A stretch of 64,000 nucleotides of DNA from Polytrichum commune. Lineage: Eukaryota > Streptophyta > Polytrichopsida > Polytrichales > Polytrichaceae. The translations under genes and the position numbers were made by a program. Of this stretch, positions 31,799 through 63,304 are shown one piece after another (position 1 is the stretch's first letter; the number at the start of each line of letters is the position of its first letter). The stretch covers positions 34,722,001-34,786,000 of the forward strand of contig OX485806.1 of the NCBI GenBank assembly GCA_950295325.1. The letters run 5' to 3'. A model generated the notes under the pieces. The model was not told the DNA's origin. It saw only the letters and a program-made list of their open reading frames with translations, and did not search any database.

Positions 31799-31834
<36 letters not shown>
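31799..31834. repeat. (AT)n(AC)n microsatellite
   Basis: About twelve AT dinucleotides run directly into about seven AC dinucleotides. Confidence 0.8.
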
Positions 31835-31835
<1 letters not shown>

Positions 31836-38492: not shown

Positions 38493-38496
38493 GAAT
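38493..38496. repeat. Target-site duplication GAAT, left
   Basis: GAAT directly abuts the left terminal inverted repeat. The same four bases directly follow the right repeat at 63301-63304. Confidence 0.65.
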
Positions 38497-38527
38497 ATGG
38501 CCTTATTAACTAAAATGAGCCAATTGG
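38497..38527 (+). repeat. Left 31-bp terminal inverted repeat
   Basis: It begins ATGGCCTTATTAACTAAAAT and ends GAGCCAATTGG. It is the exact reverse complement of 63270-63300. Confidence 0.85.
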
Positions 38528-38552
38528 GCCATTATGAGACAATCCGTACCTT

Positions 38553-38573
38553 GGGAACGTCCATTGGGAACGT
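38553..38573 (+). repeat. Left subterminal GGGAACGT pair
   Basis: GGGAACGT occurs at 38553-38560 and 38566-38573, just inside the left terminal repeat. The mirrored pair ACGTTCCC lies inside the right repeat at 63233-63251. These are possible binding sites for the element's recombinase. Confidence 0.5.
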
Positions 38574-38738
38574 AGTTCACGAGCAAAATCCCGTGGAAAT
38601 TACCTCATTACGAATGTTGAGAACAACCAAAAGGTCATCAACAGAGGAAACCACTGTGTTGCAAAGATTAGAGGTGTTTCATATATGCTAGAAGGGCACG
38701 TATTGCGTATTAAAGTTGAACTTAGGTTTAACCCTAAC

Positions 38739-39283
38739 CACGGGTGAACGCCCGTGACGAACCAACGCCTGTGCAATACAAGGGGGAAAATCCTTTATAC
38801 AAGCTTGACTAAACATAGAAAGCTCATGACAACTAAAAAGCAACGATGCGCATGAAAACGAATGTGTTCTAAAATTATTGGTTTAATCAATGCAACCTCA
38901 ATAAACAGTGTTCAAATTACTTTGGACTCAAAGTGGATGCATGCACCTAACCACGGGTGAACGCCCGTGAGTAAATGAAGAAGGTCATCACAACTGAGAA
39001 GCAACAATGCGCATGACACCGTATGTGTGCTAAAAACAATTATTGCTCAAATCATACAAGCCATAACAGGGACGGTGTAGCATGCGGGAAGATTCCACAA
39101 CAAATACAGGATTCGAGCGATGACAAACATGACACCACAAATGATAGCTGACCACTTGGATGAGTACACCATGCAAATGACAGCAAAAATATTAAAAAAA
39201 AATGGTTGAACCATATATACCACAGTGGGCAAATGATATTACAGAAAGAAGATGGACAAATGTACCACGGGTGAACGCCCGTG
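38739..39283. repeat. Three subterminal palindromes and a direct repeat
   Basis: CACGGGTGAACGCCCGTG occurs at 38739-38756, 38952-38969 and 39266-39283. It is the element's palindrome with one stem mismatch. The first two are each followed by a related block of about 60 bp (38821-38880 and 38982-39044, sharing AAGCAAC(G/A)ATGCGCATGA), so part of this end was duplicated. Confidence 0.7.
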
Positions 39284-39334
39284 AAGTTCCAAAACTACGA
39301 TGACTACGTCAAATCTATAACTAGGAAGGTCCGC

Positions 39335-39893
39335 TCAAGCACAATAGGAGTACGAATCTTTAATCCTTTTCAATTTTAAGTCATGAGGTTCCCTTTGAGC
39401 TGCAGTCCTTTGCTTGCGTTTTAGCTCTTCTACACGAAGATTTTCATTCATTAAAATTGTAGCTTCTCGAAGTTGTCTCACTCTTGAAGCTATGTAATCA
39501 GACATTGATGATGTAGTATTGGCCGAACCGCACTTCCAACATCCAGAACTGTTTTCAGACCCCTTGGGTTCACTGGAATGACGCGCTTGGAGAGCAAGTT
39601 GTCTCTTCGCGCGAGGGGGTTGTTGTCTGACCGGAGCTTCATCCGCCACCGCAACAGCAACCGCAACATCAGATGATTGCAAGATCTGTGCCAATGACAA
39701 AAGCAGCAAATGTTCATATGAAAATCGCAAAAGTTGAAGAGAATACTGCAATAGGGGATTCAAATTGAAATTGAATTACCTTAGGACATGGTGACGAAAC
39801 TTCGGCGAAGTCCGCATTAGCATCTGGTATAGCATGTTGTCGACGAGGTGGAGTGGGCACATGATTCTTGGCACGTGTATGCAATGGAGAATG
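39335..39893 (-). CDS. Putative two-exon locus, unknown, 5' end not found
   Basis: Two exons can be joined in frame: 39893-39780 and 39685-39335. The GT-AG intron is 94 nt (donor CCTAAG|GTAATTC, acceptor TTGGCACAG). The product has a basic, proline-rich start, then an alternating Val-Ala stretch (VAVAVAVADEAPV). A Cys pair follows (CWKCG), then a charged, probably helical C-terminus (ASRVRQLREATILMNENLRV). A likely acceptor (TATCTTGACAG) precedes the first exon, but no upstream exon or start is clear. It may be a small third gene of the element, or 3' exons of the large gene that ends at 40390. Family not recognised. Confidence 0.35.
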
Positions 39894-39952
39894 CTGTCAA
39901 GATACATGGAGGTTATGGCATGCAAGATGGACACTGTGTGGAGCAAGACCTT

Positions 39953-40134
39953 ACGGGCGATGGCCCGTGAGGAAGTTGGAAAAGTGCAGCAAGCTTGGAA
40001 CAGAAACCACTGCGTATTCAAAATTGTACACCATGGAATCAAACAAAGCGATCCAAAACGCAGCCAACAAGGTCGAAGTGATGTAACACAATTGTGACAC
40101 TAGGTTACGGCTTGCCACGGGCGAAAGCCGGTGG
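39953..40134. repeat. Two degenerate palindromes
   Basis: ACGGGCGATGGCCCGT (39953-39968) and CCACGGGCGAAAGCCGGTGG (40115-40134) are diverged members of the element's palindrome family. They lie between the large left gene and the locus at 39335-39893. Confidence 0.55.
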
Positions 40135-40389
40135 GACATTGACAGAGTAGTACCTAGTGTTTGACATGCATACAGTATATACCCAGTGTATATATATATA
40201 AAGTTCACAACACCTATATACATGCTTACATGACAGTGCCGATAGACGAAAATTCAAAGGAGCATAAACAACATCGCCAAAACACATATAAAGTGAAGTG
40301 CTAAGCCAATACAGCTCCATATGAACATAAATCCCATGAATTGTACATCTTGATTTCCTCTACACTATATGAAGACGCCCTTCGGGTGT

Positions 40390-43300
40390 CTACATAGACA
40401 GCTGCGCCGCTGGAATTCTACGGTTGGAAGCCACTTGGCTATGTCTAGCAAATGCCTGCTTATAAATTTGTGCTTGTGGTGAATCTAGATTGAAGGGTCC
40501 CTGGCCTGATGGATAAGGGTTGCTCCCCACAAAATCTGGTACAAATTGTTGAGAATTCAAGAGGTTCTGGAGGTAATTATGTAGAGTATCCAAGCTCTGG
40601 TTCGCAAAAAATGTTGGGGGATTAATATAGCTCCCTGGAGGGTTCGCAATGCATTTGAAAGGGGAGTCATCAACAAGTAATGTTGTTCTATGAGTGGGCT
40701 GCTTCGAATGTGGCACTGGATGCAACCGGCTCCACTCAAAAAATGAGCACATGTCCTTCAAAAAGAAACTCGAATCAGCATTCACAGGACTAGGTAGATT
40801 TTGTCCCTTCTCATCGCCCAGAATGTGACACATCTCTTGCCCAAACACAAACTCAGGCTGCCTAAAACCTTTGAAGAAGTGTTGGACAAGTGGCTTGAGA
40901 TTCTTTAGAAGCTTCGACGACCACACGACAACATGGAAATTGGACAGCACAAACCGGAGAAAGCGTCCCAATCCTTTCCTAGGTATGATGGCACTATATG
41001 GGAGAAATAGTGGAGCCACCTCCCCAGTTATCAAGGGGCTATGTTGCGACTCAAGAACCTTCCTCGTGTTAACATTGTCGCACTTTGCTGACCTCACAAG
41101 AATCCCGTTCACATCCAGCACTAACCATATCTTCTCTCTCCGATGAACAACTGTACTTGGAGAGGTGAGGATCTGGCGATGACAAAATTGAGGGTCATTC
41201 TAAGGTTTATTCATCATTATGGTTACAATAGTATGGGAAGAAATGATTAATACAAATTGGTATAAGGAAACTTGCCGACACAATCAATTAGATTGGACAG
41301 AGTATCGTACCGTAGGAGGCAATTGCTCCTCTGTCAATTGACCTGTTAACACATCCACACAGTGTGTTCAGTTAACGTGACGAAGGAAACCTCTCCCACG
41401 GGCGTTCGCCCGTGGGACAGATGGGGGAGGAAATTATGCTAGTCATTTAAGAAATGGAAGAAATGACAAAAACATGTAAAGCATGACTAGTGCCCCACGG
41501 GCGTTCGCCCGTGGGAGAAACAACACCAGCACTACATAAACATATCTTACCTTGAGCTTGAGTGACGGGGATATTTGAGGCCTGCTCGACGCGGGGAGGA
41601 GAGCTCGGTGGAATCCCGTGAGGGCTGGAGGACTCAGCAGCTCCAACATGCACATCACGGCTCGGAGATTCCTGTACACCACTGACATCAATTATCTCCA
41701 CCGTGGAGTCCACAACACTCTGTGCTTGCGCAGCCGTCGATCCGGGATACTGATCTCGTCCACTACGTTCCCGTGGAGCTTCGAAGGCTTTCCATCTCTT
41801 GCGCATTTTCTGCAACGAAGCGGCATGAAGAATATGCTTCACCTTCACTGCTTCACAAAATGCTGGAGTAGATAGGTACGCAAACATCTTGTGGTAGTCA
41901 TATGACTTGTACAAGTGCGCCAAGTTCAACCGCACATTCTCCGGAACATCCGACAAGTATTTGTCCACGAATGGAGCAAAATGGACCTTGTCCTTCTCGT
42001 CGGGTTGTTTGCCCTCTTCCTTGTCTCCTAATGCCGGTGGAGGTCTTCCAGCAAAAACCGGGTGCGGATCATCGACGAAGTTTAGCTTCACCCTGTTGTA
42101 TTCAGGTTTGCCGTAGTCCTCGTCTTCCGAATCATCTGTCATGTAGTTGGCAAACGTTCCACGAACCCGATGTGGAACGCAGTCTTTCACCTTAACCCTG
42201 ACATCCAACTCCACGCGTCTCTCCGGAACATCGTCATCACTGTCTAGACAAATGACCTCTGTTCGAATGATGACCTCATCTTCCTTCGACGGTGACGCGG
42301 CTTCACGCTCTTCCTCCACCATAGGTGGCGTCGGTTCAATAGTTGGCCGCCCTTGTCCAAGGACCTCCATAACGGCAGCAGCAACCTCCTCCACAGGTGA
42401 GGAAACGTTCAACTCCACTCGCAAATCCGACCTCTGCACCCCTGCAGGAAGAGGCTCCACATTTTGCGATTGAGTATCGATAGGCGGGACGTCTCCTACA
42501 TTGTCATCCTCATGTCGAAGAACTTCGCCCACGTCACCGTCATTATCCTGACTAGTTGGCGCGCTATCCTCCAACGACCGAGAACCCTCTCCAACCTTAG
42601 GAGGGCGTAGGGATTTTCTTCCCTTTCGGGTAGCCTTCACTTTCTTTCGTGAAGTTGGTTTTGAGGAAAACCTTATTGAAGGCATACCCTCTTGCGGGAC
42701 ATCTTCCGCCGACTCCTGCCCCACCCCTGGCCGTTGTTCCTCTTCATGATATTCTTGCTCTGAACTTGTACGTGTGATATCATCGTGACGAAACCCGCGC
42801 CCCGGGGTAAGTGGGACACCAGAGGTAAATGATGCTACAGGAAGGGGGAGGCTCTCTCCCCCATGTCCGTCTCCAAGTCTCACGGGCGATCGCCCGTGGG
42901 GGGTTGGCTCCTCCCCCAAATCATGTACATGTCCCACGGGCGATCGCCCGTGGGGGGTTGCCTGTTCCCCCAAGTCATGTAGATGACTCACGGGAAATCG
43001 CCCGTGGGGGGGTGTCTCTTCCCCCAACGCTTGCACATCCCCCACGGGCGATCGCCCGTGAGGGGTATCATCAACTTCCTCCACCTCCTCAGATGACTCC
43101 CCTAGCTCATGTAGGCCGTCATGCTGTGGCGAATGGATGGCGTCAACATCCTCCTCGGCGTCCTCTTCTCCAAGATCCCCGACGTCCTCGTCATCGTCGT
43201 CGACTTCCTCCTCCTCTTCCTCATAGGTGCCTATTCCAGGAAGGTCCACTTCGTTGTCACCATCCCCCTCGTCGGTATTGTCATCCGATTCCCGCCCTTT

Positions 43301-46300
43301 TTCATTCCACCTCTGCAGGCTCCAGTCAACTGCTGCAAACATCTTTGCCCTCGCTTGACCGGCAACATCCACAGGCACAATGTTCACAACCTTCATACCC
43401 AGAGCCTGCAAGTAGAATACGAGCAATCTATGAATGAGGTGTCCACATGCATGTTGAAAAGGCATTAAAAAAAAGAAAAAAGAAGAATGGGGAAATTGTT
43501 GGATAGTACTTACATGTGCCACAATATGGGCCTTGTTTCCTCCACAAATATTTAAGAAAAATGTCCCCTCCAGACATGAAGGTTTGATGATGTCAATGTA
43601 CGTCTGCATCCTCAACTCACCATTGAAAATGCTCCTTGACCCCTCATTGACATACGCCCTCTTCACTGAATATCTCCTATATCGCTTCGGGTCATGCATA
43701 TTCAACATCTTCCGACCACCGCAAATCCGCACAGCAACCTCTGAGGTAGACTCACCTTTGTTGGGAAAAATGCAAGTCGTGACCCTGAGAACACTCTCCT
43801 CGAAGAAGTTGTCACGTGATGCAATCTTTTCCTCGTTGCAACCATGGTAGAAGGCTTCGCAAAATCTGACATTGGAGGGGAGGAATGTCTTCAAAAGAGT
43901 GTGGACGAAGTGTCGATCTGGACACTCAGAAACCACTGTCCACAATTGAGGGGCTTCTAAAATACCAGGCATATCCTGACGAATACCTCGGAGCGTGCCT
44001 TCAATCACTTCTTTGATGTGCACGGGACTATCGACTCCCGCCTGGCGTCTGGGAAGAAACCTTGTGTCCAAAAGAGCATGAGTAATTGGGCCCAAATTTT
44101 CACCACCTCCACTGCAATGGTAGTCGTTGTCTATGGTCAACAAAACATGCTCTTCAGATACGTCACTGATGGTAGTGACTAGGATATTGTTGACTCCCTC
44201 CTTGAACCGTGCAGGAACAGGCACTTTTTTCTTCGCTGGATTCAATGCGGCAGCAAGGTAATCGACTCCCAACAAATCCAGAAGCCGTTCTCTTTGTAAT
44301 CGGCCGAAATTGTTCCTCTCCTTCCACGCTTTCCATTCCTCCCGGTCAATGGTCCTCTTCTGGTCTTGTTGAACAAGAAAACGAGGGATAGGGTTGAGAC
44401 ACTCTGCCATTGCAATGTATGTCTCATTTTTCTTTTTCCTATTCAGCGCCCAATCCCCAATAGTTTTCAACGTGTGCCTAGGGTACTTGTCACCTTCTTG
44501 TATGACCAGGCACTGATCTGCCGCCATATCAAGCTCTTCCTCTGTCAAGCCGCGAGCGTGCTTCAAATCGTTCTTCACAACGCTCTTTGGCTTATACCCC
44601 TTCTTGTCCTTGACGAGTCCGAGGGTGGTCTTGTCTATATACTCACCCCTCTCGAACTCCAAAAATATCCGCTCCCACTTGGCCCATAGCGCATCATGCA
44701 GCGCTGGGAACACGTGCTTCATTATCAAATTGGACTCTTTTTCCACACGGAAGGTCCACAATAGGCAAGTCAAGAAGTCCTGCAAAGAGACATTATACAT
44801 TTGAATGAGAACAATCAGGTATCCACATATCCATAACATATGCATGTCAATAACATATCCACTTCGATTTGTAGAATTTAGACACATGAGAACGGCGACT
44901 CCCCCACGGGCGAACGCCCGTGGGGGAGCCACTCTCAAGCTTCCTGTTGCAAGCATAATATTGAATTTAAAATTAAAGTATGGGAAGATACCTTCCAATT
45001 CTTGAAGGCTTCAGAGTTGCTTGCAGTGGCTCGCACAGTTCGAGCTGGCCTTCCTCGTCTTATCCATGTCTTCCTAGCGTGCTGTATACACTCAACCCAT
45101 GATGGAAAGTGCTTTCTATATTCACTATCCAGGTTGAGAACGCCAGAGAGGTGGAACAACGGGTCATCATCGCCCTCGGGGGCCCACACGACATTGCATG
45201 GCCACTTGGAGAAGAATTCTTTCACTTCATCTGTGCTGCTCGGATCATTAACGTACTCTAAGCATGCAGCCAACGTGTGTTGTCCATTCACAACGTGAAA
45301 GGAACTGTCTCGAATTTCGTCAAAGCTGATGGGCTTGCGCCTTCTATCTGCAGGAACAATTGTGAGGAAGTTTGGGTAGTTCTTTGGTATGAATGCATAG
45401 TTAAACAACCATGTCTTCATTTCCTTCAAGTGCGCCTCCGATATCGGCCTACAATTATAACATGCATCTCCACGCTCTATGTTGAATATGCTCACGAATC
45501 CAGAGACTCCTTTTCCAAAAATCCACACCCTATTGTACTTATTCTTGAACAGCTCCATATCCATTAGCCTGTCCCCGACGGATTTGTCTGGGGGCCCACT
45601 CTTGGACTTCTTAGGAATCTTCTCCAACTCCAGAAATGGACTTTCTTCCTCCGATGTCTTCTTCCTCCCCTTCTTCGGAATGACATCCTCCTTGGGATCG
45701 TCTGGTACATTCATTTGCAAGTCTGGTTCCCTTCTTGCCTTCTTCCTGGATGGCTCCTCACGGGCACCTTCACCAGCCCTCCTCTTCCCCTCACGGATTT
45801 GCTTCTTCCTTGATAGTACTTCCTGTCGTGCTTCCTTTGCTTCATCCACTATGATCTTCACACGTTGAAGAGCAGCTTTGTAGTCTCCCTCCAACATGAC
45901 CACTCTCTCTTGCGGCGTCTTAGTGTGCCGATGTGTTTCCGTGTAGATGATGCAGTACGTCAAAAACTCGGTATTCAACAACCGTATATTCTCGCCCTCC
46001 GTGTTTAGCTCTTCGTTATACTCCTCATATCCAAAAGATTCTACGTATCCTGCTACTTTGAAATCCTTCTTCCTCTCTGCAGACTTGCACATAATAAGAA
46101 GACGGCTTCCATCCGCTTGAACATCGAGCACTTGCTTTACTTTCATCATCTTCCTCCATGTTGGGTTCGATGCGGACTTCGTGTATAGAGACAACACCGT
46201 TGTCTCACCGTAGCCACTGTACTGCATGAACCATTTGACATCCTCCTGCAGGACGTCGATGTCATAATTCACAGCTCTCGACAATCCTCCAGGCACTGTC

Positions 46301-47322
46301 CACAAGAAATACGCATGTTAGTATTCAGAGGACCATGTTTTCGAACATTAATAAAGTAATTACATGGTATTTCGTGGGATGCGTATTTCTACCTTTACGA
46401 GCTGTTTGCTTGGTTCTTGCCATTTCTCCCTATATACTTGATCTGTCTATGTACCTGAATGAAACACCCACTCTCTATTACAATTCATTGACTATGTGGA
46501 CTTACTTCAACGAGATAATAGCGAGATAGGTCGTATGTGGAGACATAGACAAATAGGTGGAACATACACATACAGTATGTGTTTGGAGCCCACGGGCGAA
46601 CGCCCGTGGGCTAACCACATTGTAGTGTTTGTAGTGTATTTTCCCACGGGTGTTCGCCCGTGGGCCAAAAGTCCAAAAACACTGCAATGTGTTTGGAGCC
46701 CACGGGCGAACGCCCGTGGGCTAACGCCATTGTAATGTTTGTAGTGTATTTTCCCACGGGCGTTCGCCCGTGGGCCAAAAGTCCAAAAACACTGCAATGT
46801 GTTTGGAGCCCACGGGCGAACGCCCGTGGGCTAACGCCATTGTAGTGTTTGTACTGTATTTTCCCACGGGCGTTCGCCCGTGGGCCAAAACTCCACAACC
46901 ACTAGAATGTGTTTGGATCCCACGGGCGAACGCCCGTGGGCTATTCGCCTTGTAGTGTTTGTAGTGTTTGTAGTGTTTTTTCCCACGGGCGTTCGCCCGT
47001 GGGCCATACATTCTCGAAACACAATATAATGTTTGGAGCCCACGGGCGAACGCCCGTGGGGCACCCCCTTAGAATACGTATCATCACTTTGGCCCACGGG
47101 CGTTCGCCCGTGGGCCAAAAGTTCACAAATCACTTCAATAAGTTTGGAGCCCACGGGTGTTCGCCCGTGAGCCCCTTGCATATTTGGCTACTTCCATGTC
47201 TCACGGGCGTTCGCCCGTGGGACATGAGATTCAAGGGTCTTCAAAAAAACCCTTTTCACACTATAATCTCTACATATGAAGATGAAGAATACAAACTCAC
47301 CAGTTTTCTTGGGTCGACTCAT
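40390..47322 (-). CDS. Element gene A: ParB/DGQHR-like plus FCP1-like HAD domain
   Basis: My model has six coding exons: 47322-47301, 46295-44992, 44779-43514, 43405-41551, 41342-41311 and 41172-40390. All introns are GT-AG and the total of 5262 nt stays in frame (1753 aa). A TACTAAC branch-point word precedes exon 2. Order of parts: start MSRPKKTV; basic nuclear-signal-like stretch near 173-200 (SRKKQ, KRR, SRKKARREP); a ParB/DGQHR-like segment with VVNGQHTLAACLEY near 344-348; an unrecognised middle. Next is a strongly acidic region (EEEEEEVDDDDEDV) with four 18-aa repeats near 980-1040. The C-terminus (IWLVLDVNGILV, VVVWSSKLLKNL, LLVDDSPFKC) matches FCP1/NIF phosphatases. The catalytic DxD reads D-V-N, so activity is uncertain. 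It diverges from gene B. Function unknown; probably nuclear. Confidence 0.75.
41173..41310 (-). other. Gene A intron 5
   Basis: A 138-nt GT-AG intron (donor CCTACG|GTACGA, acceptor CATCGCCAG) joins the 32-nt exon 5 to the FCP1-domain exon in phase 0. It contains no palindrome. Confidence 0.6.
41394..41515. repeat. Two palindromes in gene A intron 4
   Basis: CACGGGCGTTCGCCCGTG with extra paired flanks lies at 41394-41417 and 41494-41515. Both are inside the intron spanning 41550-41343. Confidence 0.85.
42881..43060. repeat. In-frame exonic palindrome array, 4 x 54 bp
   Basis: Palindrome cores start at 42881, 42935, 42989 and 43043, exactly 54 bp apart. Three are perfect CACGGGCGATCGCCCGTG and one (42989) is diverged. 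They lie in exon 4 of gene A and encode the 18-aa repeat PHGRSPVGHVHDLGEE-like on the minus strand. Confidence 0.9.
43406..43513 (-). other. Gene A intron 3, stop-free and a multiple of three
   Basis: The donor is CACAT|GTAAGTAC and the acceptor TTCTACTTGCAG. The intron is 108 nt, has no in-frame stop, and lies between codons. Retention would insert 36 mostly hydrophobic residues without a frameshift. Confidence 0.6.
44899..44928. repeat. Palindrome in gene A intron 2
   Basis: A 14-bp arm hairpin with a 2-base centre, core CACGGGCGAACGCCCGTG, inside the intron 44991-44780. Confidence 0.9.
46296..47300 (-). other. Gene A intron 1 filled with palindromes
   Basis: The donor follows the 22-nt first coding exon (AAAACTG|GTGAGT) and the acceptor is TTCTTGTGGACAG. 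The 1005-nt intron contains twelve palindromes between 46587 and 47219. Confidence 0.65.
46587..47219. repeat. Array of twelve palindromes, ~110-bp double units
   Basis: Cores begin near 46591, 46645, 46701, 46755, 46811, 46865, 46921, 46984, 47041, 47095, 47152 and 47202. In the left part the array repeats as a 110-bp unit with two palindromes. One has an AA centre and the next a TT centre, so the pair is itself inverted. Units decay towards 47.2 kb. All arms are at least 8-9 bp and several reach 12-13 bp. Confidence 0.9.
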
Positions 47323-48530: not shown

Positions 48531-48599
48531 ATTATGTCCATTCACCTCGAAGGGACGGTTGGGAGTCGAAGGGACGCAACGGAGACGGCGATTGTACAT

Positions 48600-49920
48600 T
48601 CACACGTGAAGCCTACACGTTATAAATTATGATGGCCTATAATCTCACTTCATTAATAATCATTGCAACTTCCTTCCCAATGTTCGAGCTTAGGTTTAGT
48701 TTTAGTGTTCAAGACATTACATTCAATATCGATTGTATTGTAACATGGCATGCGATGTGACACTTGTGCGATGTTGAGATTATTAGCCATGTGACATTTT
48801 TTAAAAGAGGTTGGATTGTGTGCTTAAGATATACTAATCTATCCACACTCATAATGAGCACAACAATGATATTAATTGAAGTATCTCAATTTAAGTGTCT
48901 AGGGGTCTACGTAAGGAAAAATCACGAGAGGAAAGGGTTGTGGAAAGGGATGGGATTGGACCTCGTGTTCAGAATATAGATAACATTCTAAGTTCAAAAC
49001 ATACTGCAATGGAATGATATGAAATTCGGAACGTTTATGTACACACTTACAAATAAAGATACTTGGTCAACATCCAAGTTGTTCACCCTTACATATCAAA
49101 AAGCTATGGATAGGTGCTCCGTTGACTCCAAATTGCAAGAGTGGTGCCAAGGTAGAGTGCATTGACACTATTAAAGCTATGGGTTGGAATCTCCAAGGTG
49201 AGGTTGACATGTAAGCTATAGCCGTTTCCTTTTAAGCCTTAAGCTTGTCAAGTGAACTATAGCATAACTTCTTCGCACCTCATGAATGACTTCACCATAA
49301 TGTGGAAAGATGTGATAATGATTATTCTAACTACCTCTTACTATTGCAATAGTGGGGAGTTAGGTTAGTGGGTTTCACCCCATTCCATCTCCCCTACAAA
49401 AAACCCATCTCACACGCAACTCATGGGGTTTAAATTTAGCATGATTGGTGTATACTCAATTAAGGTTTATTTGGACTAGACACGGACTCGTGGTTTTTAA
49501 TCAACATATGCGAACCATACTAAAGTGAACAAACATTGGACCTTGTCAATTTAGAGGGGCAAGTAGCCACAGGTATCCTACTTGAATACTTTACAACAAT
49601 AACAATGAATCATATTACGGCTACTTATAAGGTTGGTCATGTTATTATATTAATAATTGTGTAAACTACATGAATTACATCCATAAAAGCATAATCTAAA
49701 GTTTGTAGAATCTAATTCCATAATTGTTGAATTTTCTCCAAAATAGGACTCAACTAGAGCTTTAAAATATGTATATTACTCCAAAAATTTTGGTGCACTA
49801 ACATCAATGATCCTTTCAAATAATTCAATTATAAATATAGATAGTGTTTTATTGCAGAAAAGTAACATAGGTGTTGGCTTAATTCAACTACTTAGTTTAG
49901 GATCTATTTCACAAATATCT
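48600..49920. other. Between the divergent genes, nothing recognised
   Basis: AT-rich DNA inside the giant element, without palindromes, protein-like frames or copies of the 415-bp unit. Confidence 0.45.
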
Positions 49921-51588: not shown

Positions 51589-52295
51589 AATTTCCACACC
51601 ACCCTCTACTTGCTCCCAAACAAAAAGTATGCCATCATCATAATTGGAGCATTATGGTGATACATGATGGTTTTTTTTATCGCCATAGTTGAAACGATAA
51701 AATACTTCAAAACCATAAAGATCATAAGAGAGCACAAAATCTCTCTTCTTCGATTATCCATGATTGAAGATCAAATATAAGAAGAGAGATATTGATGAGG
51801 ATGATTAAGAGGAGAGCATGTCTTAAATAATACCAAAGAGTAGTGTTTTGTCCAATGTGTATGGGTTTTCCCCTCTTCATTCTTGAGCATTCAAGGAGAC
51901 ATTTATTTCCTACATGGGCCAAACTTGACAATTGGCAATTTGGCAATTTTCATTATCTTTTGAATAAAATTGAACATTATATTACACAATTCTTATGAAC
52001 ACAATTATTCTTCAAATCTTTTGATACAATGTGAATGTAGAGAATTATGGTTTTTTATCACAAAAAATCTTCACCATTAGGTGAACTTCTCTTCACCGGT
52101 GACCTTCTCTAGTGGACTTCTCCGCTAAACTTCTCCTCTAGGTGTTTAGACTTCAACCGGTCAAGACTCCTTAAGAAATATTTTATTGTCTTTAATTCTT
52201 CTCCGGCACATCCACCATTTCCCTCATATAACCATGTCTTGGCCAAGCATTCTTGACCGACCGGAGGCCTTCTCCACCGTAGTGTAAACCGGCCC
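51589..52295. mobile_element. PIF/Harbinger-like MITE, right part only
   Basis: The right end (complement of GGGCCGGTTTACACTACGGT) is followed by TAA at 52296-52298. The left end is missing: array sequence runs straight into MITE interior at about 51589. It matches 54336-54687 over the shared interior. Confidence 0.65.
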
Positions 52296-52506
52296 TAAGT
52301 GTCTGAATCCCATAGAGGAGTCCTCCATACATATATATATATATATATATATGAACAGTAGCTTGGTCTTGATACGGGGCATGTCCTATATATACCCCAC
52401 ATGAACATGACACGTGGGCATATCAAACATCAAACATCAAACATACCCAATCTTATTGATGGACCTACAATGGACGAACTACAAACTTTGTGTCTAGGGA
52501 GGTTAT

Positions 52507-52541
52507 CCGTAAACCCAAACCCTAAACCCTAAACCCTAAAT
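52507..52541 (-). repeat. Interstitial telomere-type repeat
   Basis: About three CCCTAAA units within the array spacer. The equivalent spacer at 56055-56085 carries four. Confidence 0.7.
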
Positions 52542-53316
52542 CGTTTTGAAACGGGCACTTCCTAGTGTAGAAGGTTGGGATGTCAATACTAATGTAGTAT
52601 TTTATTTGCACCAATATATGTGTCCATATGATCAAAGGTATAGAATAGGCATTCCCTCCAATTCCTTACACCATAAGATCATCACATACTAACTCTCTAC
52701 AATATATAGGAACCATGAGCGATGCTAGTGGAGTTCTATGTCCTATGTCCATGAAGTACGAATAGATTACTAGGGTAAGAAGATTCATTCTTGGTACAAA
52801 TTTGGCTCAAGCTTTTCACCACCACTACTAATGATTGCTCATTGTGGAAGTAAACTAATATGATCTTTATAATTTTCCCGTTCATGGCCTATAGTCAAAT
52901 TAGTTCGTATTGATACTCTATTAAGCTTAGAAACCCACTTAGGCACGTCTCCTATGGCAAAACAAAGACATGTTTAATTCCAACGTATCATTGATCTTAT
53001 GGCCGCCTTCATTTGATGTTAAACCTCACATCTATAATTACACGTGATGTTATAGGTGACAAAAATGAAAGTCAATGGACCAAGTGTACCTTTATTTAAA
53101 AAAAAACATTTGGACATGGCCTTTTGCAAGACACACATTATGACACACACATTATCACATACAATTCTCGAACCTAGGTAATGCGATGATTCCTATGCAT
53201 ATTCCTAAGGTCATATGAGCAAATTTGAGCGATGGACATGCTTACGTGGGTTGCTTGTTTTAATTTTTACACCCCTAAGGTATTCTCAGTGTGTGAAATC
53301 CATAGAGGAGTCCTTC

Positions 53317-53438
53317 ATACATACATACATATACATATACACATACATATATATACATACATACATATATATACATACATATACATACATACATATATAT
53401 ATATACATATATATATATACATACATATATATATATAT
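53317..53438. repeat. TA/CA-rich microsatellite
   Basis: Mixed CATA, TATA and TACA units over about 120 bp. It is an expanded version of the short (TA)n found in the other array units. Confidence 0.8.
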
Positions 53439-53814
53439 GATCAGTAGCTTGGTCTTCATAGGGGCCATGTCCTATATACACCCCACATAAACATGCCACG
53501 TGGGTTATTTATTAAATGAATCATACATCCAATATATTATGAAGGACGGTGAGCATCTTGGGCACCAAACACCAAACATACCCAATGTTATAGTGGATAG
53601 TATTAAGCTTTGGCATCTCTTCATTTTTGCCCCCTATATCTAACATTTGGGCATGGCATTTTGCAACACACACATTATGACACACAATTATCGAACCTAG
53701 TAGGTAACGCGACGATTCTTGTGCACATTCCTAAGGTCATATGGGCAAATTCGATCGATGGACGTGCTTCCGTGGGTTGCTTGTTTTAATCTTTACACCT
53801 CTAAGGTATTCTAA

Positions 53815-54687
53815 GGGCCGGTTTACACTACGGTGGAGAAGTCCACCGGTCATGAAAAAAAGGGCGTTTCTGAATTGTGATTGGTCGAAATTGCAACTCT
53901 TCACCGGTGAGTGTTTACACTAGGTGAAGAAAACAATGGTGGTGAACTTTTCTCATGGATGATAAAATGACATGGCCGCCTACATGGCGGCACTTTTTGG
54001 AGTTGGGCTTCTCTGGAGGAAGAGTTTCTTGTCCGGCCTCAAGAGTCCGGACAAGAAACTCCTCCTCCGGAGAAGCCCAATTCAATAAAAAATACCATAC
54101 AAATCGGCAAGTGTATGCAAAGTATCACCGGTTGCCAATCGATGCAATGTCAAAGAAATTCTACACACTATTGGAATACAAAGTCTTAATTTTGTATCTT
54201 TCTTGCTCAACATGGGTCCAAGCAAACAACATAAATAAATAAAAGTAGGCTTACTCACCCCCTACACGATCTTTGAACATTTTTGCATTATATGATCCAA
54301 GAAGAAATTGTGACACATATCCACTTGGCCGGTCAAATTACCACACCACCCTCTACTTGCTCCCAAACAAAAAGTATGCCATCATCATAACTGGAGCATT
54401 ATGGTGATACATGATGGTTTTTTTTATCGCCATAGTTGAAACGATAAAATACTTCAAAACCATAAAGATCATAAGAGAGCACAAAATCTCTCTTCTTCGA
54501 TTATCCATGATTGAAGATCAAATATAAGAAGTCTGAGAGATATTGATGAGGATGATTAAGAGGAGAGCATGTCTTAAATAATACCAAAGAGTAGTGTTTT
54601 GTCCAATGTGTATGGGTTTTCCCCTCTTCATTCTTGAGCATCCAAGGAGACATTTATTTCCTACGTGGGCCAAACTTGACAATTGGC
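53815..54687. mobile_element. PIF/Harbinger-like MITE, left part only
   Basis: TAA at 53812-53814 precedes GGGCCGGTTTACACTACGGT. The interior includes a palindromic pair around GAGGAAGAGTTTCTTGTCCGG and its complement near 54010-54070. The right end is missing: after GACAATTGG the sequence jumps back into array DNA at about 54688. Confidence 0.65.
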
Positions 54688-56054
54688 CTTGATAGGGGCC
54701 ATGTCCTATATACACCCCACATAAACATGCCACGTGGGTTATTTATAAAATGAATCATACATCCAATATATTATGATGGTGAGCATCTTGGGCACCAAAC
54801 ACCAAACATACCCAATCTTATAGTGGATAGTATTAAGCTTTGGCATCTATTCATTTTTGCCCCCTATATCTAACATTTGGGCATGGCATCTCTTCATTTT
54901 TGCCGACTATATCTAACATTTGGGCATGTCATTCTGCAACACACACATTATTGTGCGCATTCCTAAGGTCATATGGGCAAATTCGAGTGATGGACATGGT
55001 TACGTGGGTTGCTTGTTTTAATCATTACTCCCCGGAGGTAATCTAAGTGTGTGAATTCCATAGAACAATCTTGCATATATATATATATATGAACAGTAGC
55101 TTGGTCTTGATAGGGGCCATGTCCTATATACACCCCACATAAACATGACACGTGGGTTATTTATGAAATGAATCATACATCCAATATATTATGAATGTGA
55201 GCATCTTGGGCACCAAACACCAAACATACCCAATCTTATAGTGGATAGTATTAAGCTTTGGCATCTATTCATTTTTGCCCCCTATATCTAACATTTGGGC
55301 ATTTGCATTTTGCAACACACACACTATGACACACAATTATCGAACCTAGGTAATGCGACGATTCTTGTGCACATTCCTAAGGTCATATGGGCAAATTCGA
55401 TCGATGGACGTGCTTACGTGGGTTGCTTGTTTCAATTTTTACACCTCTAAGGTATTCTAAGTGTGTGAATTCCATAGAAGAGTCCTCCATACATACATAT
55501 ATATATATATATATGTAAACAGTAGCTTGGTCTTGATAAGGGGCATGTCCTATGTACACCCCACATGAACATGCCACGTGGGTTATTTATGAAATTAATC
55601 ATACATCCAATATATTATGAAGGTGAGCATCTTGGGCACCAACCAACAAACATACCGAATCTTATAGTGGATAGTATTAAGCTTTGGCATCTCTTCATTT
55701 GTGCCTACTATATCTAACATTTGGGCATGTCATTCTGCAACACACACATTATTGTGCGCATTGCTAAGGTCATATGGGCAAATTCGAGTGATGGACATGG
55801 TTACGTGGGTTGCTTGTTTTAATCATTACTCCCCGGAGGTAATCTAAGTGTGTGAATTCCATAGAACAGTCCTATATATATATATATATATATATGAACA
55901 GTAGTTTGGTCATGATAGGGGGCATGTCCTATATATACCCCACATGAATATGGCACGCGGGCATATCAAACATCAAACACCAAACATGCCCATTCTTATT
56001 GATGGACTTGCAACGGACGAACTACAAACTTTGTGTCTGGGGAGGGTATCCGTA

Positions 56055-56085
56055 AACCCTAAACCCTAAACCCTAAACCCTAAAT
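56055..56085 (-). repeat. Interstitial telomere-type repeat
   Basis: Four CCCTAAA units in the spacer equivalent to that at 52507. Confidence 0.75.
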
Positions 56086-56429
56086 CGTTTTGAGACGGAC
56101 ACTTCCTAGTGTAGAAGGTAGGGATGTCAATACTAATGGCGTATATTATTTGCACCAATATATGTGTCCATATATGATCAAAGGTATATAATAGGCATTC
56201 CCTTCAATTCCTAGCACCATAAGGTCATCACGTACTAACTCTCTACAATACATAGTAACCATGAGCGATGGTAGTAGAGTTCTATGTCATATGTCCACGA
56301 AGTACGAATAGATTACTAGGGCAAGAAGATTCATTCTTGGTACAATTTTGGCTCAAGCTTTTCACCACCACGACTAATGATTGCTCATCGTGGAAGTAAA
56401 ATAATATGATCTTTATAACTATCCCTTTA

Positions 56430-57766
56430 TAGGGACTACTTTTGCAATCAAGTTGACCGTCAAGCTTAGAGTGGTTGTTGTTTTTTGACTGGCAAGAACA
56501 ATAAATTTTAATTTCATGTCATATATGATAAAGTGGCCACCTTATTAGCCGCCCACATCTAACAGTGTAGCATTAATAGTTGTTTATATATGTATATATA
56601 TATAAACATTAGTATCTTATTGATAGGAGGCATGTCCTATATACACCCATTCATGGACATGCCAGCGTGAGTTATTTATCAAATGAATCATACATCCAAT
56701 ATATTTTGAAAGTGAGCATATCAAACATCACACACCAAACATACCCAATCTATACCATGATAAATGTTTGGTTTCCACATCCATTTGCAGTCGTGATTTT
56801 CCCTTTAAAGTTCAGGAGGCTTACTAGCTCACCCCGAGGTTGCGTTCCCAATTGGGGGGGGGGGGGGTCAGACCTCGGCCTCCGTATCTCTCCCACTCGA
56901 ATGCTCCCTCATCACTCTGCTTGCCTCTTTTGACTCTCAAATCGCTCCCGGGTCGCTCCATTGTCCAGTTTCTTGAGCTCTACATAGTTCACAGAGTTTA
57001 GCACCCTAGATTTGTTAGAAAAATGATTTTTTTTGCTTAACTAAAACACACATTCTTCAATCCTACACTAACCCACACATTATGTATACCTCATCTATGA
57101 ATGTGAGTCCAATAAATGTGTCACTTGCTAGTACCAACACAACATCATCACTTGGATGTGGGCATGCAAACAAATGCCCCATAACATAAATTCTCTCACA
57201 ACATGCATAGAAATGCCCTTCTCCAAACGAATAGAAGAAATGAGCATGAAAGTAGACCTTCCAGCCCAAGAGAAACAATGATGGTTAATTCACTATTGCT
57301 CTACCAAGTTTCTCTCACTATCTTCCAAATGATAGACCCTAGTGAAAAAAGATGTTTTTTTTAAGAAACATCCAGCACGTGCTCCTCTTCCATTTGTTCA
57401 TACGATTTGGCCCCAATTTGGCATAGTGCTCGATGATCTAAATTCAGTAACATGATGTCAAGGTTTATGCTTCCACTGTCAAATTCTTTGGTTTTCCCAT
57501 TTAACCAAGACATTCATTAATGCCACCTCATGATCAATCAGATTCAAAATTCATGTGGCCTTATTAAGGATTATTTGAGGGCATGCCAATGTGTTTAGAA
57601 AGCAAGACAACATTATTGGCATAAAGAAGAATGGCAACTATTGTGTTTGGCTTAGTCATAACAAGTGAACAAGAAAAGTATTATGCATTCAACTATGATT
57701 GGTTTTTCATATATGGTAAGGTTAGTTGGCTCATACTATATATATGGTAAGGTTAGTAGGCTCAGA
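56430..57766. other. Spacer inside the element, no gene seen
   Basis: AT-rich. It has a G homopolymer at about 56857-56869 and a fragment of the array unit near 56640-56750. No protein-like frame is present. Confidence 0.45.
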
Positions 57767-58720
57767 CCATGTGTCATAATGTGTGTGTTGCAAAATGCCA
57801 TGCCCAAATGTTAGATATAGGGGGCAAAAATGAAGAGATGCCAAAGCTTAATACTATCCACTATAACATTGGGTTTGTTTGGTGGTTGGTGCCCAAGATG
57901 CTCACCTTCATAATATATTGGATGTATGATTCATTTCATAAATAACCCACGTGGCATGTTCATGTGGGGTGTATATAGGACATGCCCCTTATCAAGACCA
58001 AACTACTGTTCATATATATATAGATATATGTATGGAGGCCTCTTGTATGGAATTCACACACTTAGAATACCTTAGAGGTGTAAAGATTAAAACAAGCAAC
58101 CCACGTAAGCACGTCCATCGCTCGAATTTGCCCATATGACCTTAGGAATGTGCACAAGAATCGTCGCATTACCTAGGTTCGATAATTGTGTGTCATAGTG
58201 TGTGTGTTGCAAAATGCAAATGCCCAAATGTTTAAAATAAAAATAAAGGTACACTTGGTCAATTGACTTTCATTTTTGTCACCTATAACATCATGTGTCA
58301 CTATAGATGTGAAGTTGAACATCAAATGAAGGCGGCCATAAGATCAATGATATGTTGGAATTAAACATGTCTTTGTTTTGCCATAGGAGACGTGCCTTAG
58401 TGGGTTTCTAAGCTTAATAGAGTATCAATACGATTTAACTTGACTATACGCTATGAACGGGAAAATTATAAAGATCATATTAGTTTACATGCACGAGGAT
58501 CCATCATTTGTGGTGGTGGTGAAAACCTTTAGCCAATTAGTACCAACGAAGAATCATCTTGCCCTCCTAATCTAATCGTACTTCATGGACATATGACATA
58601 GACCTCCACTACCATCGCTCATGATTACTATATATGGTAGAGGGTTAGTACGTGATGGCCTTGTGGTGTTAGGAATTGGAGGGAATGCCTATTATGTACC
58701 TTTGAAATTGGAGGGAATGC
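57767..58720 (-). repeat. Inverted copy of the array unit plus its spacer
   Basis: Read on the minus strand it matches, in order, the spacer blocks at 52540-53100 and the ~415-bp unit. It is the only copy in this orientation and it runs up to the promoter of gene B. Confidence 0.7.
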
Positions 58721-58728
58721 TCACCTTG

Positions 58729-58735
58729 TATATAA
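58729..58735 (+). promoter_or_regulatory. TATA box of gene B
   Basis: TATATAA followed by GGC, 70 bases before the start codon at 58805, fits a transcription start near 58760 and a short leader. Confidence 0.5.
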
Positions 58736-58804
58736 GGCAACCATGTGGAAGCTCATTTGTTTCTTCTCATATAGCCCATTGCCTTTACTTTTGAGGAACT
58801 CACC

Positions 58805-61800
58805 ATGGAGAGCGTGGATGCAGAGGTTAGTGTCAATAATTCACTTTAGCACGCTAGTGAGCTCATGGGGACCCCCACGGGTGCACCCGTGGATCCGTGA
58901 GAATGCACTGGATACAATAGTAGTTGCATCTCACGGGTGCGCCCGTGGGGGCCACAAAATTACAACCGAAGTAGATGCATCTCACGCGTGCGCCCGTGGG
59001 TGGTGCCACCCACCACTTGGGAGAACCCACGGGCGTTCGCCCGTGGGTGGAGACTCCCACCACTTGGGAGCTCCCACGGGCGTTCGCCCGTGGGTGGCGC
59101 CGCCCACCACTTGGGAGATCCCACGGGCGTTCGCCCGTGGGTGGCGCCGCCTACCACTTGGGAGATCCCACGGGCGTTCGCCCGTGGGTGGCGCCGCCTA
59201 CCACTTGGGAGATCCCACGGGCGTTCGCCCGTGGGTGGAGACGCCCACCACTTGGGAGATCCCACGGGCGTTCGCCCGTGGGTGGCGCCGCCTACCACTT
59301 GGGAGATCCCACGGGCGTTCGCCCGTGGGTGGAGACGCCCACCACTTCGGAGATCCCACGGGCGTTCGCCCGTGGGTGGAGACGCCCACCACTTGGGAGC
59401 TCCCACGGGCGTTCGCCCGTGGATGGCTCCGGGGTTGTCTTTTTATTATGCTTAATGCTAGGTGCTTATCTGTACAAATAAGTTATTCCATATGCATGGC
59501 TTGTTTCTTCACGGGAATTATAATTATGCTTACATGCCTATTTCTGTAGGACTAAGAACTAGTTGTTGGGATGTTGTCCATTTCAATCTTGGACATATGA
59601 CTATGCAGTGGGAGTTGACACATGTATTACAATGTTGGTTGCGATGATATCATTGACATTGGAATTTAGTGCGCATAGTGAATGTGACCTTGCAATTCGA
59701 AGTCAATGTGGCGTTCATTAATGTTTGAGCTATGAGTATGGGAGGTCTGACTATTAAAGGACTACATGATGATATGTGTTCTGACTAGAGTGACATTCTG
59801 GACTGATATACTTTAATGTTTACATTCAGATTCCGCATTGTGTTGGATTGTCGAGGAAGGATTTGAAGGGTAAGGCGGTTGTCCTCTTCGATGATCAGGA
59901 TCGTGCCTTGTGTGATGGGTTAATATGCAACACCAATCCGCTAGATTGTGTTGACAATAGCATCCTTGGCGATGAATATGTTGGAGTAATTATCTTGAAC
60001 CCAACTGGACATGTGATTTCGATGGATTGGGAGAATACTCTGCACCGCTGGCCGCTCTCACTTACAAAATTTGAAGGACACACATTGGCGGAGATATTGT
60101 TGGTCCATCATAACGCGACCCGTGAAGATGAGAGTCGGCGGCGTTTTCTTGGAAAACGCCGATACAACACTTTGAGGATATGTGCACCTCGGGCACCTGG
60201 AAAGAAAACTTTGGGGGCCACTGAGGAGGGAGCACGGATGTTATCCACGGTAGATTGCTGCAAGGAGCATTGTTGCCAGGTATTTCCAAGGCCTTTGTTG
60301 GTTAGTATTCGGGAACACTACTTTGCCTTGCCTTTCAATGCTCGGAAGCTCATTGCCCTTGCAGTGTTCCAAACGATCCAGAAGGAAGAGCACACGGGTA
60401 GGGAAACGGTTGTAGTGGAAGGAAGAACAATTTGCACTCGTGCATGGAGGAACATCTACATGATATCAAGGGCACAATTTAATAGGAATAAGGCCGACAG
60501 CCAGATGGGGGTTAGATCTCGAGATCATGGTAATACAGGAACCAGAAAGCCGAGGGCGAATACAGTGCAGGCACAAGCGACTCTTGGCGTGTTGATTGAG
60601 GGTAGAGCGGATTCCATGCCCCATATGACTCGGACTCTTCCAAATGGTGAAAAGATAGGTACGGAGATGCTCCCTGTGGGAACAACTTGGTCCAACCTAC
60701 TGGACGAAGTGAACAACTTGGACAAAGACCTCGGGTACGAGCCTGTCTCAATGTCAAGTTTTAGCCGCTTACATCGACAACATTTCAAGCAATATGTTGT
60801 TAAGAGCCCTGGGGACAACTTCTCGCGTTGTGGAACTTGCGTTTCTTTCAAGGATTTGTTGCGAATACACACAAAGAACACTACCGGGTACTTGGCCATC
60901 TCGAAGGCTAGCCATCGGCATTTGGCATTGCAAGAGGCTCATAGAAACAGTTACTACAAAGATAGGATCTTGTCAAAGTACTCTCCGAAAGAGGTCCTTT
61001 GTATCATACATGACAAAATGGATTATGGGAAAACGGCGCTTCCTGTTTTTGCGCACAAAAACAAACGTGTTGACAAATATGAGCGTTTCCCGATCTCCAT
61101 TGCGGGAATGATTGCGCATGGTCACTCTAATGTGAATTATGCGCATTATGTTCTTGATATGTACCCATCGGATGCGAACTTCACTATCACATCCATTATG
61201 AAGTTGCTTTGTCAACTTGAGGTCCCGCCGGTCTGCTCCAGTCGCCACATTCCGATTTCCACCATAGGCGACCCTTTGCACGACGCACTGGTGGTTGGCG
61301 TAGAGAAGTGTTCAGGAGCACTTCCTTTGCCATCGCTCGAAATTATTCCACCTACGGGGTTGCCACCCCTCTTGCTTATTCAGATGGACAATTGTGCGAA
61401 GGATAACAAATCAAAATACAACATGTTGTTTTGGTCTGCATTGACCGCAAAGGGAATCTTTCGTGAAGTCCGGGTGTCTTTCCTTATTGTTGGACATACG
61501 CATGAGGATGTGGATGCAATGTTCGGCCGGTTTGGACAAAGGTTGAAGATTGAGGATTGCCATACACTCCCAGACCTCATGGCATCGTTCATGAAAGCTG
61601 GGGATCCCACTATTGTCCCATACTTGATTCATGAGGTTGCTGATTTCAAGGAATGGGTGAAGGGATACTACCATGAGTTTGGTCAAGACCGACTTATAGG
61701 GCACTCCAAGGCACACCAATTCTGTTTTTATGTAGACCCTGAAGGAGTGCCATTGATGCAATACAAAGTGTTTTGTACAGATGCAAGTTGGGCGCCAAAA

Positions 61801-62780
61801 GGTGGAATTGCTCTATGGAATGTGGACCCTGTCACAAAGAAAACCATGTTCCCACCAGGTTAGTGGGCTTCATTAACAATGTTTTCTTGGAAGTACACTA
61901 CAAAATACAAGGTGTGATGCATGTGGCCCACGGGTGATCGCCCGTGGGCCGTTAGTTCATGGTTTCGCTCTAAGCTCTATGTATGTATGTTTTTGTAGGT
62001 TGTCCCCGTCCTGTTCCAAAAAGGGAAATGAAAGATTCTGTGAACATAAAGCTTGGACTGAAAGGTTTTATTAAGTATTGGAAGGATACGGCAGATCAAG
62101 ATACTTCCGGTCAATATATGCAGTCCATTGCACCAACAATTTTATATTGGGAGAATGTGCTTGCGGTTATGGATCATCCTTTATCTCCATCTCCATCTGA
62201 ACTTAGCGAGCCCTTTTGGCCTTCTACACGGTTCTCCATTGCAGCTGCCCTACATGTGGACAATGAGCATCTATTTGAGGAAAACATCACGGACTATGCT
62301 TATGTCGGACCAGCTAGTGCTCGACCCGCAGAGACCTTTCGACCTGGTGCACATATCAGGGTCGGCCATTATGTCTTACTACGTCCTAGTGAGGATTGTG
62401 CTAATCCAGTCTGGATGGGACGAGTGATTTCCGAGCCTAATTTGGCACATGTCGGTCCTCATGCTCGTTCCATTGAGATTGTGTACTATGTGCCGGTCCT
62501 TGGGACCAGGAACAAGAAGACCTTGGATGAACGTTATGAGGAATGGGACACGGCAAAACATTTCAGATGGACGAGGCTCAAGGAATATGCTCCAACACGT
62601 CAATCTCTAGATTGTGTTGTGGCATCATGGGCAAGACAAAAGAATGCGTCCGATGACAATGTGGTCATCCCAGCGAGGCAAATTCTTTTTGCCAAGGATA
62701 ATTTAGATCGATGCACAAGAGGTGAGCATATGACTAGTGGAGATCAATTTGAGGATGTGGTATCAACAGAATTCATGTAG
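58805..62780 (+). CDS. Element gene B: DUF7869-like protein, candidate transposase
   Basis: Three exons, 58805-58825, 59830-61858 and 61999-62780, give 943 aa with both introns GT-AG and in frame. The start ATG has ideal context (CACCATGGAG). Parts in order: a cysteine cluster (DCCKEHCC) followed by a helical segment (FNARKLIALAVFQTIQ); a second Cys pair (RCGTCVSF); a core with IIHDKMDYGKT (Asp402), LLIQMDNCAKDNKSKY (Asp527) and VGHTHEDVDAMFGRF (Glu566/Asp569). The C-terminus has a small beta-rich, WMGRV-containing segment like a chromatin-binding fold. From memory the core matches the family called DUF7869. The spaced Asp-Asp-Glu pattern resembles an RNase H-like recombinase, which is inference. 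Intron 1 carries twelve palindromes and intron 2 one. Confidence 0.75.
58826..59829 (+). other. Gene B intron 1 filled with palindromes
   Basis: The donor GATGCAGAG|GTTAGTG follows the 21-nt first exon and the acceptor is TTTACATTCAG. The 1004-nt intron contains twelve palindromes between 58875 and 59423. Its length is almost that of gene A intron 1 (1005 nt). Confidence 0.7.
58875..59423. repeat. Palindrome array, nine exact 47-bp units plus three variants
   Basis: Nine 22-bp palindromes with core CACGGGCGTTCGCCCGTG start at 59026, 59073, 59120, 59167, 59214, 59261, 59308, 59355 and 59402, exactly 47 bp apart. The linker reads like TGGCGCCGCCTACCACTTGG with few changes. Three shorter variants precede them (58875-58892, 58932-58947, 58983-58998). 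Near identity suggests recent expansion. Confidence 0.95.
61925..61950. repeat. Palindrome in gene B intron 2
   Basis: Core CACGGGTGATCGCCCGTG with GGC/GCC extension, inside the 140-nt intron 61859-61998. Confidence 0.9.
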
Positions 62781-63269
62781 ATTGGATATGCATTCATCAA
62801 TTCTTGTATCCGCGGGTGAACTCCCGTGGTGGGCGCCCTCGGTGGACATTGATCATCATGTTTGATGCTCATTTTTGATAAATGTGTGGATGAATTAGGG
62901 AGCCCTAGACATTGACATTTGCCTAGGGATGTTTACATGACCACTTTTTTTTGGCATCACAGATGTGAACTTTCATGTGCATTGTAATATTTTGGAAATA
63001 TGTTCTCTATGTATGGGAGTCATCCAATGTGCATGGTGGTCCCAAACAACCCACGAGGATTCACCCGTGGAGTGTAAGCACAATCCTTCGTGACTCACAA
63101 TTGATGAGATCTTCCATATTATACTTCATTATTTGCATGGCTTTATAAACATGTGTGGGGCTCATTTGGGATCGTTGAGTTGTATTTTAAGAACCCTCAA
63201 CGGGTATTCTCTCGTACTAGCATGTAATCATTACGTTCCCAACACGTTCCCTACATTAAATTGAGCGGA
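62781..63269. other. Right subterminal region of the element
   Basis: Non-coding. It holds two degenerate palindromes: CCGCGGGTGAACTCCCGTGG at 62810-62829 and CCACGAGGATTCACCCGTGG at 63051-63070. Two ACGTTCCC words at 63233-63240 and 63244-63251 mirror those at the left end. Confidence 0.55.
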
Positions 63270-63300
63270 CCAATTGGCTCATTTTAGTTAATAAGGCCAT
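63270..63300 (-). repeat. Right 31-bp terminal inverted repeat
   Basis: Exact reverse complement of 38497-38527. It is followed by GAAT at 63301-63304. Confidence 0.85.
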
Positions 63301-63304
63301 GAAT
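63301..63304. repeat. Target-site duplication GAAT, right
   Basis: It matches 38493-38496 and directly abuts the terminal repeat. Confidence 0.65.

Follow-up and report, generated by a model that had tools for sequence, protein, structure and literature searches.

The moss Polytrichum commune harbours a giant autonomous cut-and-paste DNA transposon that has been active recently and has left deletion derivatives. One copy lies in the stretch analysed here, referred to as the window (64,000 nucleotides of assembly GCA_950295325.1, contig OX485806.1, positions 34,722,001 to 34,786,000, forward strand). This copy occupies window positions 38497 to 63304 (24,808 bp) and contains two divergent genes, one for a likely transposase and a larger one, here called the big gene. 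The predicted product of the big gene begins with MARTKQTARK, which is exactly how the first ten residues of histone H3 read. This tail was absent from a first-pass annotation of the same sequence and is the most surprising part of the element. As facts of sequence, insertion with a 4-bp duplication, 31-bp ends, recent movement, and an H3-tail start kept through the divergence of the family are practically beyond doubt. The best overall explanation, to which a probability of about 60% is assigned, is a giant transposon with site-guided anti-silencing by an H3-tail mimic, comparable to that by the VANC proteins of Arabidopsis; the anatomy is read from the sequence, and from it we infer the mechanism. 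If true, this would be the first known transposon-encoded H3-tail mimic, its exact tail kept through near-saturating divergence, and histone mimicry by mobile DNA would become testable in a plant. We know of no earlier transposon-encoded mimic of this tail.

Ends, copies and superfamily of the element

The two termini, of 31 bp each, are exact reverse complements, and GAAT adjoins each of them externally, as the first-pass annotation had claimed. The end coordinate given there (63304) was also right. The start given there (38493) is where the left duplication begins; the element itself begins four bases further on, at 38497. The features of the ends are:

38493–38496, no strand: left target-site duplication, GAAT
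38497–38527, + strand: left 31-bp terminal inverted repeat, ATGGCCTTATTAACTAAAATGAGCCAATTGG; boundary the same in 8/8 left ends
63274–63304, − strand: right 31-bp terminal inverted repeat
63305–63308, no strand: right target-site duplication, GAAT

The window includes 38.5 kb of flank on the left and only about 0.7 kb on the right. When up to three mismatches are allowed, a stretch of 29 bases from the terminus matches two places in the window, namely both ends, and none in 100 shuffles; the left boundary is identical in all eight aligned left ends of copies. Together with the duplications in other copies, this rules out chance or misread ends.

The genome searched comprises 407.8 Mb in 64 contigs, of which seven (C1–C7) are large (42–78 Mb). 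With a 100-base probe from the left end, 224 candidates were obtained; the 40 that were scored are 89–100% identical and spread over all seven large contigs. Fourteen copies were examined (c1–c7 and r9–r15, c1 being the window copy). The right end lies outside the fetched stretch in six of them (c2, c7, r9, r11, r14 and r15). Both ends were seen in the other eight, and seven of these have an exact 4-bp duplication, each a different one: GAAT in c1, TTTG in c3, TCTG in c4, GTGT in c5, CTTC in c6, TAAG in r10 and CACT in r12. In r13, three of four bases match (CAAT/AAAT). The target duplication is thus of fixed length and varying sequence. The inverted ends are perfect over 31 bp in c1, c3, c4 and c6 and have one mismatch in c5; older copies have one to three mismatches per inverted end. 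Full-length copies measure 24,263–24,959 bp, and c3, c4 and c5 are 97.0–99.6% identical to the window copy in blocks longer than 3 kb. Shorter relatives measure 4,164 bp (c6), 3,372 bp (r10) and 1,948 bp (r12).

An unoccupied site with a single duplication was found for c3 only. When the flanks of c3 are joined with one TTTG, the junction is spanned by 40 scored matches of 415 candidates, at 91–99% identity. Since these joined flanks match dispersed places end to end, the target of c3 is a dispersed repeat that also survives without the insertion. This target (G000:C6, near 43.06 Mb) is abundant; the 415 candidates are those for a 200-base flank. The first-pass annotation, which had described a very large cut-and-paste element, had suggested looking for other paired copies with 4-bp duplications and for an empty site. 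Both exist, the latter for another copy than the GAAT insertion in the window, and with the different duplications and the deletion derivatives they uphold that description.

The likely transposase is encoded on the + strand in three exons (943 residues):

58805–58825, + strand: exon 1 (MESVDAE)
59830–61858, + strand: exon 2, DUF7869 domain (PF25273)
61999–62780, + strand: exon 3 and stop codon

Its only match in Pfam is DUF7869 (PF25273; E 2.6e-44), a domain of unknown function, in keeping with the earlier remark that the element resembles no nameable superfamily. This protein is likely the transposase that cuts at the element ends, a role which we infer here, and the domain becomes tied to an element whose ends and 4-bp duplications are established. 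PiggyBac elements duplicate TTAA, and none of the seven exact duplications listed above has this sequence. CACTA/EnSpm elements end in CACTA/G; the ends of the present element start with ATGGCC. One candidate is AcademX, compared by description only. The element may belong to this or another described superfamily with 3–4-bp duplications and be new in appearance only. AcademX makes 3- or 4-bp target duplications (PMC10045372), and the duplication found here is of 4 bp. An encoded nuclease is a further mark of AcademX. However, Pfam scans of the two proteins up to E 10, which covered all but the acidic middle of the big protein (the exon holding it was scanned up to E 1), detected neither a nuclease nor a helicase domain. 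Membership of such an already described superfamily is on the unlikely side.

The big gene and its histone H3 tail exon

Both large spliced genes reported in the first pass could be modelled, with GT-AG introns throughout. The predicted product of the big gene (six exons, − strand) has 1,757 residues and a C-terminal NIF-phosphatase-like domain (E 2.9e-8). Its coding pieces and those related to it are:

46393–46423, − strand: first coding exon, MARTKQTARK, histone H3 N-terminal tail
44992–46295, − strand: exon beginning VPGGLSRAV
43514–44779, − strand: exon
41551–43405, − strand: exon with an acidic stretch; four palindromes at 42880–43061 read as PHGRSPVG-type peptide repeats
41311–41342, − strand: exon
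40390–41172, − strand: last exon, NIF-phosphatase-like domain (PF03031) and stop codon
47301–47322, − strand: possible alternative first coding exon, MSRPKKT, with the same splice phase as the H3 exon
39338–39683, − strand: ORF3 (open reading frame 3), a further coding piece downstream of the big-gene stop

After MARTKQTARK, the reading continues in phase with V-P-G-G, at the place where H3 itself continues with S-T-G-G. The predicted protein is thus a non-histone protein with an H3 tail, followed by V[S/P]GG. The exon is present in all five full-length or near-full-length copies (c1–c5). A search of the whole genome for all synonymous spellings gave 54 sites (control 0), which divide by their codons into 17 of host H3 type and 37 of transposon type. 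Two host H3 genes were fetched; both run without intron into STGGKAPRK and use other codons than the transposon exon. Codons were the sole criterion for the remaining 15 host-type sites, and DNA type was the sole criterion for 14 of the 37 exact sites of transposon type. A recent capture from the H3 genes of the host is unsupported, as the fetched host genes have other codons and no intron after K9, and the transposon exon is common to five lineages.

A search with up to three mismatches from one 31-mer gave 50 sites of transposon type (control 0). The search for synonymous spellings adds four exact ones in a fifth spelling, which brings the transposon-type exons to 54. Of these, 37 are exact and 13 carry A7T, while T6I, R8H, A7S and R2K+A7T occur once each. 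A1, T3, K4, Q5 and K9 are kept in 54/54, R2, T6 and R8 in 53/54, and A7 in 39/54. Most changes at A7 are to T, spelt as ACC, ACT or ACA; A7T may be an established sublineage form. For a side-by-side comparison of reader and writer binding, the peptide forms are ARTKQTARKVSGG, ARTKQTARKSTGG and the A7T form.

Twenty-eight of the 54 exons were seen in context. All 18 loci outside the window's group that were fetched by exact match join in phase to V-S-G-G across an intron of 98–105 nt (in c1, a 97-nt intron leads to V-P-G-G), and a single stop, in L052, occurs within the first 105 or so codons of these loci. Five of five variant loci that were found by position, not by H3 sequence, also join VSGG in phase and stay open for at least 230 codons. 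Within 11 kb, nineteen of the 40 listed left ends have a correctly oriented H3 exon, which lies 4.9–10.3 kb into the element (13 exact, six with one change). Among 20 stretches fetched by position at 7–9 kb, six contain big-gene sequence, and five of these the H3 exon.

The lineages concerned are old. For exon C, ten pairs of lineage representatives have a synonymous divergence of 0.68, 1.03 or more than 2 (five lie beyond the formula), with a nonsynonymous divergence (dN) of 0.06–0.20. Between the same representatives, the H3 exon shows one to five synonymous changes and no replacement; this zero is built in by the choice of exact matches, and the residue counts over 54 exons and the loci found by position are the unbiased figures. 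Because the sequence, donor and phase of the H3 exon persist across old lineages, the H3 start appears more likely than MSRPKKT as the start of the big gene. The MSRPKKT exon was examined in c1–c5 and is present in all five, with one residue change in c2. Judging from the sequence, the H3 tail is very probably translated and selected.

Coding constraint is visible in the big gene. The ratio of nonsynonymous to synonymous divergence (dN/dS) is 0.32 for c1 and c2 and 0.27–0.77 across the six pairs of c1–c4; in comparison with c7, a more distant copy, the values for the true frames are 0.23 and 0.44. Identity between c7 and the window copy is 92–93% in coding pieces and 83–85% in introns and the 3' region. 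Both gene frames are open in c1 and c4 and broken in c3, which also contains 200 N. The big gene of c5 is broken, although its transposase frame is open; c2 has stops in the big gene, and transposase exons 2–3 are absent from its fetched stretch.

The palindromes and the putative role of the H3 tail

The element also contains a family of 22-bp palindromes of the form CCCACGGGCG-WW-CGCCCGTGGG, whose main groups in the window are:

38577–40134, no strand: six left-side sites, at 38577, 38738, 38951, 39265, 39951 and 40115
46590–47220, no strand: intron array of 12 sites, centres mostly alternating between AA and TT
59027–59422, no strand: array of nine sites with a 47-bp period, in the first intron of the likely transposase gene
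61928–61947, no strand: site in the second intron of the likely transposase gene
62810–63070, no strand: two right-side sites, at 62810 and 63051

This family had been called private to the element, and so it effectively is to the transposon family. Allowing up to five mismatches to the 20-base core, 42 sites were counted in the window, none of them in the flanks of 38.5 and about 0.7 kb, and the perfect 22-mer occurs 177 times in the genome (408 Mb; control 0). Among 50 of these 177 sites that were listed, 39 lie in or beside known copies (13 in c4, 13 in c5, one in c7, seven by the H3 exon at C1:33.085 Mb, four by that at C1:57.309 Mb and one near a left end from the list); the other 11 are single sites on C1, C2 and C3 unlinked to any copy found here. 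Full-length copies have 29–35 sites at up to three mismatches, the number varying by copy. For placement, 40 window sites were counted, leaving aside 51532 and 53756 (five mismatches, inside the internal repeat block). Fifteen lie in introns of the big gene, 13 in introns of the likely transposase gene, eight in untranslated or terminal regions and four in coding sequence. With 28 of 40 sites intronic, the element thus has VANC-like arrays of a short motif in its own non-coding DNA.

To our knowledge, anti-silencing by plant transposons is understood in molecular detail for few systems, of which VANC is the one best known to us. Arabidopsis VANC proteins are described as binding a short motif in variable tandem arrays and removing DNA methylation there; the arrays occupy introns and upstream regions of the elements that encode these proteins, as also stated for the VANC21 motif (PMC5735166). 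Like these VANDAL (Mutator-like) elements of Arabidopsis, the moss element is a DNA element of a plant, has a large accessory gene and short-motif arrays in non-coding DNA, and encodes an accessory protein with tandem peptide repeats of its own (VANC features from PMC5735166). The moss element differs in its 22-bp palindromic motif, its 4-bp duplication, its DUF7869 likely transposase, and an accessory protein that combines an H3 tail with a NIF-like domain; the likeness is one of anatomy, not of compared sequences.

In the mechanism proposed, the DUF7869 protein would act as transposase and cut the element ends. Removal of the first methionine would leave the big protein with a free H3-like N-terminus; this protein, or a partner, would bind the 22-bp palindromes arrayed in the introns of both genes and towards both ends, and this binding would place H3-tail decoys on the element. 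The decoy would then either occupy H3 readers and writers (e.g. H3K9 methyltransferases) or recruit H3K4-type activators or demethylases. Either way, the genes of the element would remain expressed despite silencing. The VANC-like array anatomy, in combination with the H3 tail of the accessory protein, is suggestive of such a site-guided decoy or recruiter. The steps from the free N-terminus and palindrome binding to continued expression are held tentatively, at somewhat less than even odds. A DNA-guided histone decoy, with an H3-tailed protein on intronic arrays and host machinery that acts on the decoy or is tied up by it, is likewise possible rather than probable. In H3, phosphorylation of S10 is a switch beside K9; the V that replaces S10 here would remove it.

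Several points weigh against the H3-tail mimic. Residue changes occur in 17 of the 54 exons and affect A7 in 15 of these, so that conservation is less strict towards K9 than towards K4. As DNA searches span exact synonyms or up to three mismatches from one 31-mer, more altered exons would escape, and L067 contains big-gene residues 205–245 with no detectable H3 exon or exon C start in its stretch. The MSRPKKT exon, whose splice phase is the same, could provide the main start; splicing in both first exons would bring a stop after MSRPKKTGT in the window copy. The likely transposase of near-copies is without clear constraint (9–10 changes per pair, dN/dS 0.57–2.28), and single-sequence structure models are unusable (predicted local distance difference test, pLDDT, 41 and 31, the latter for the likely transposase). 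Finally, the support is sequence evidence, with both proteins predicted and the palindrome-binding protein putative.

The H3 tail could instead be a targeting or activating device, which would either bring H3K4 writers or readers to the element or anchor the transposition complex at chosen chromatin. A1–T6, the part of the tail bound by H3K4 readers and writers, is kept in 53–54 of 54 exons, as against 39 for A7 next to the K9 side, and this favours the H3K4 side; however, the palindromes are mainly intronic rather than terminal, which fits gene regulation better than integration, and makes a targeting device unlikely. Alternatively, the palindromes could be binding sites by which the transposase pairs the ends, with the big protein as an accessory transposition factor. 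Palindromes do lie towards both ends (38577–39284 and 62810–63070), and seven (up to three mismatches) persist in the 4.2-kb derivative c6. Most sites, large arrays included, are nevertheless internal and intronic, and genome-wide the palindromes cluster by H3 exons of other copies (C1:33.08 Mb), so that this role is doubtful. Finally, it is highly improbable that the H3 exon is an intronic fossil of a captured histone gene with MSRPKKT as the true start: the MSRPKKT exon has the same phase, a donor nearer to the usual consensus (by eye) and a presence in c1–c5, but the donor, phase and nine residues of the H3 exon are kept in lineages between which synonymous change in the adjoining exon is saturated or nearly so.

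Histone-tail mimics are also known from G9a, SNAG-domain factors and viral proteins. Like the moss protein, these carry a short imitation of the H3 tail in a protein that is not a histone; the moss tail, at a predicted free N-terminus, differs in being encoded by a transposon. Some fungal DNA transposons carry TET/JBP dioxygenases (PMC12730594), and thus also a chromatin-related gene besides the transposase; they differ in carrying an enzyme, whereas the moss element has a histone-tail peptide, a plant host and a different transposase. A literature search on histone mimics and on giant or new plant or moss transposons, to which most subscription papers were closed, gave no report of the element or of a transposon-encoded H3 tail. 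Histone mimicry and transposable elements together retrieved only unrelated work, as judged by title and abstract, and a search for DUF7869 by name found nothing.

Further features of the element and its surroundings

A search of viral contigs with the likely transposase gave no match. Rfam and PHROGs gave none either, and NCBIfam nothing significant (best E 0.23); solved structures searched by sequence gave nothing relevant, one match (E 0.79) being to an unrelated protein. As to a DDE/DDD transposase, acidic motifs were noted by eye only. A relative with 38% identity over residues 5–355 lies 7–9 kb from a listed left end (L070, G000:C1:57281672-57283271); on this sequence comparison, it is a more distant family.

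In the big gene, the NIF-like domain (40390–41172, − strand) reads DVNG in place of DxDGT. Active phosphatases carry DxDGT, and the domain may be catalytically dead. The peptide HVVNGQHTLAA in exon 44992–46295 resembles ParB/DGQHR domains by eye only; Pfam up to E 10 gave no match. Compared with c7, ORF3 (39338–39683) has a dN/dS of 0.32 in its own frame and of 0.94 and 2.32 in the other two; it may encode another C-terminus of the big protein or be a small gene of its own, the third in the element.

Between the two genes lies one further feature:

49881–58705, no strand: non-coding block of interspersed direct and inverted repeats

This block of about 9 kb is built from units of roughly 0.1–0.4 kb and is without a stop-to-stop frame of at least 120 residues. 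Outside the element, frames at window positions 20775–36668 resemble, as read by eye, alpha-glucosidase and phenylalanine ammonia-lyase.

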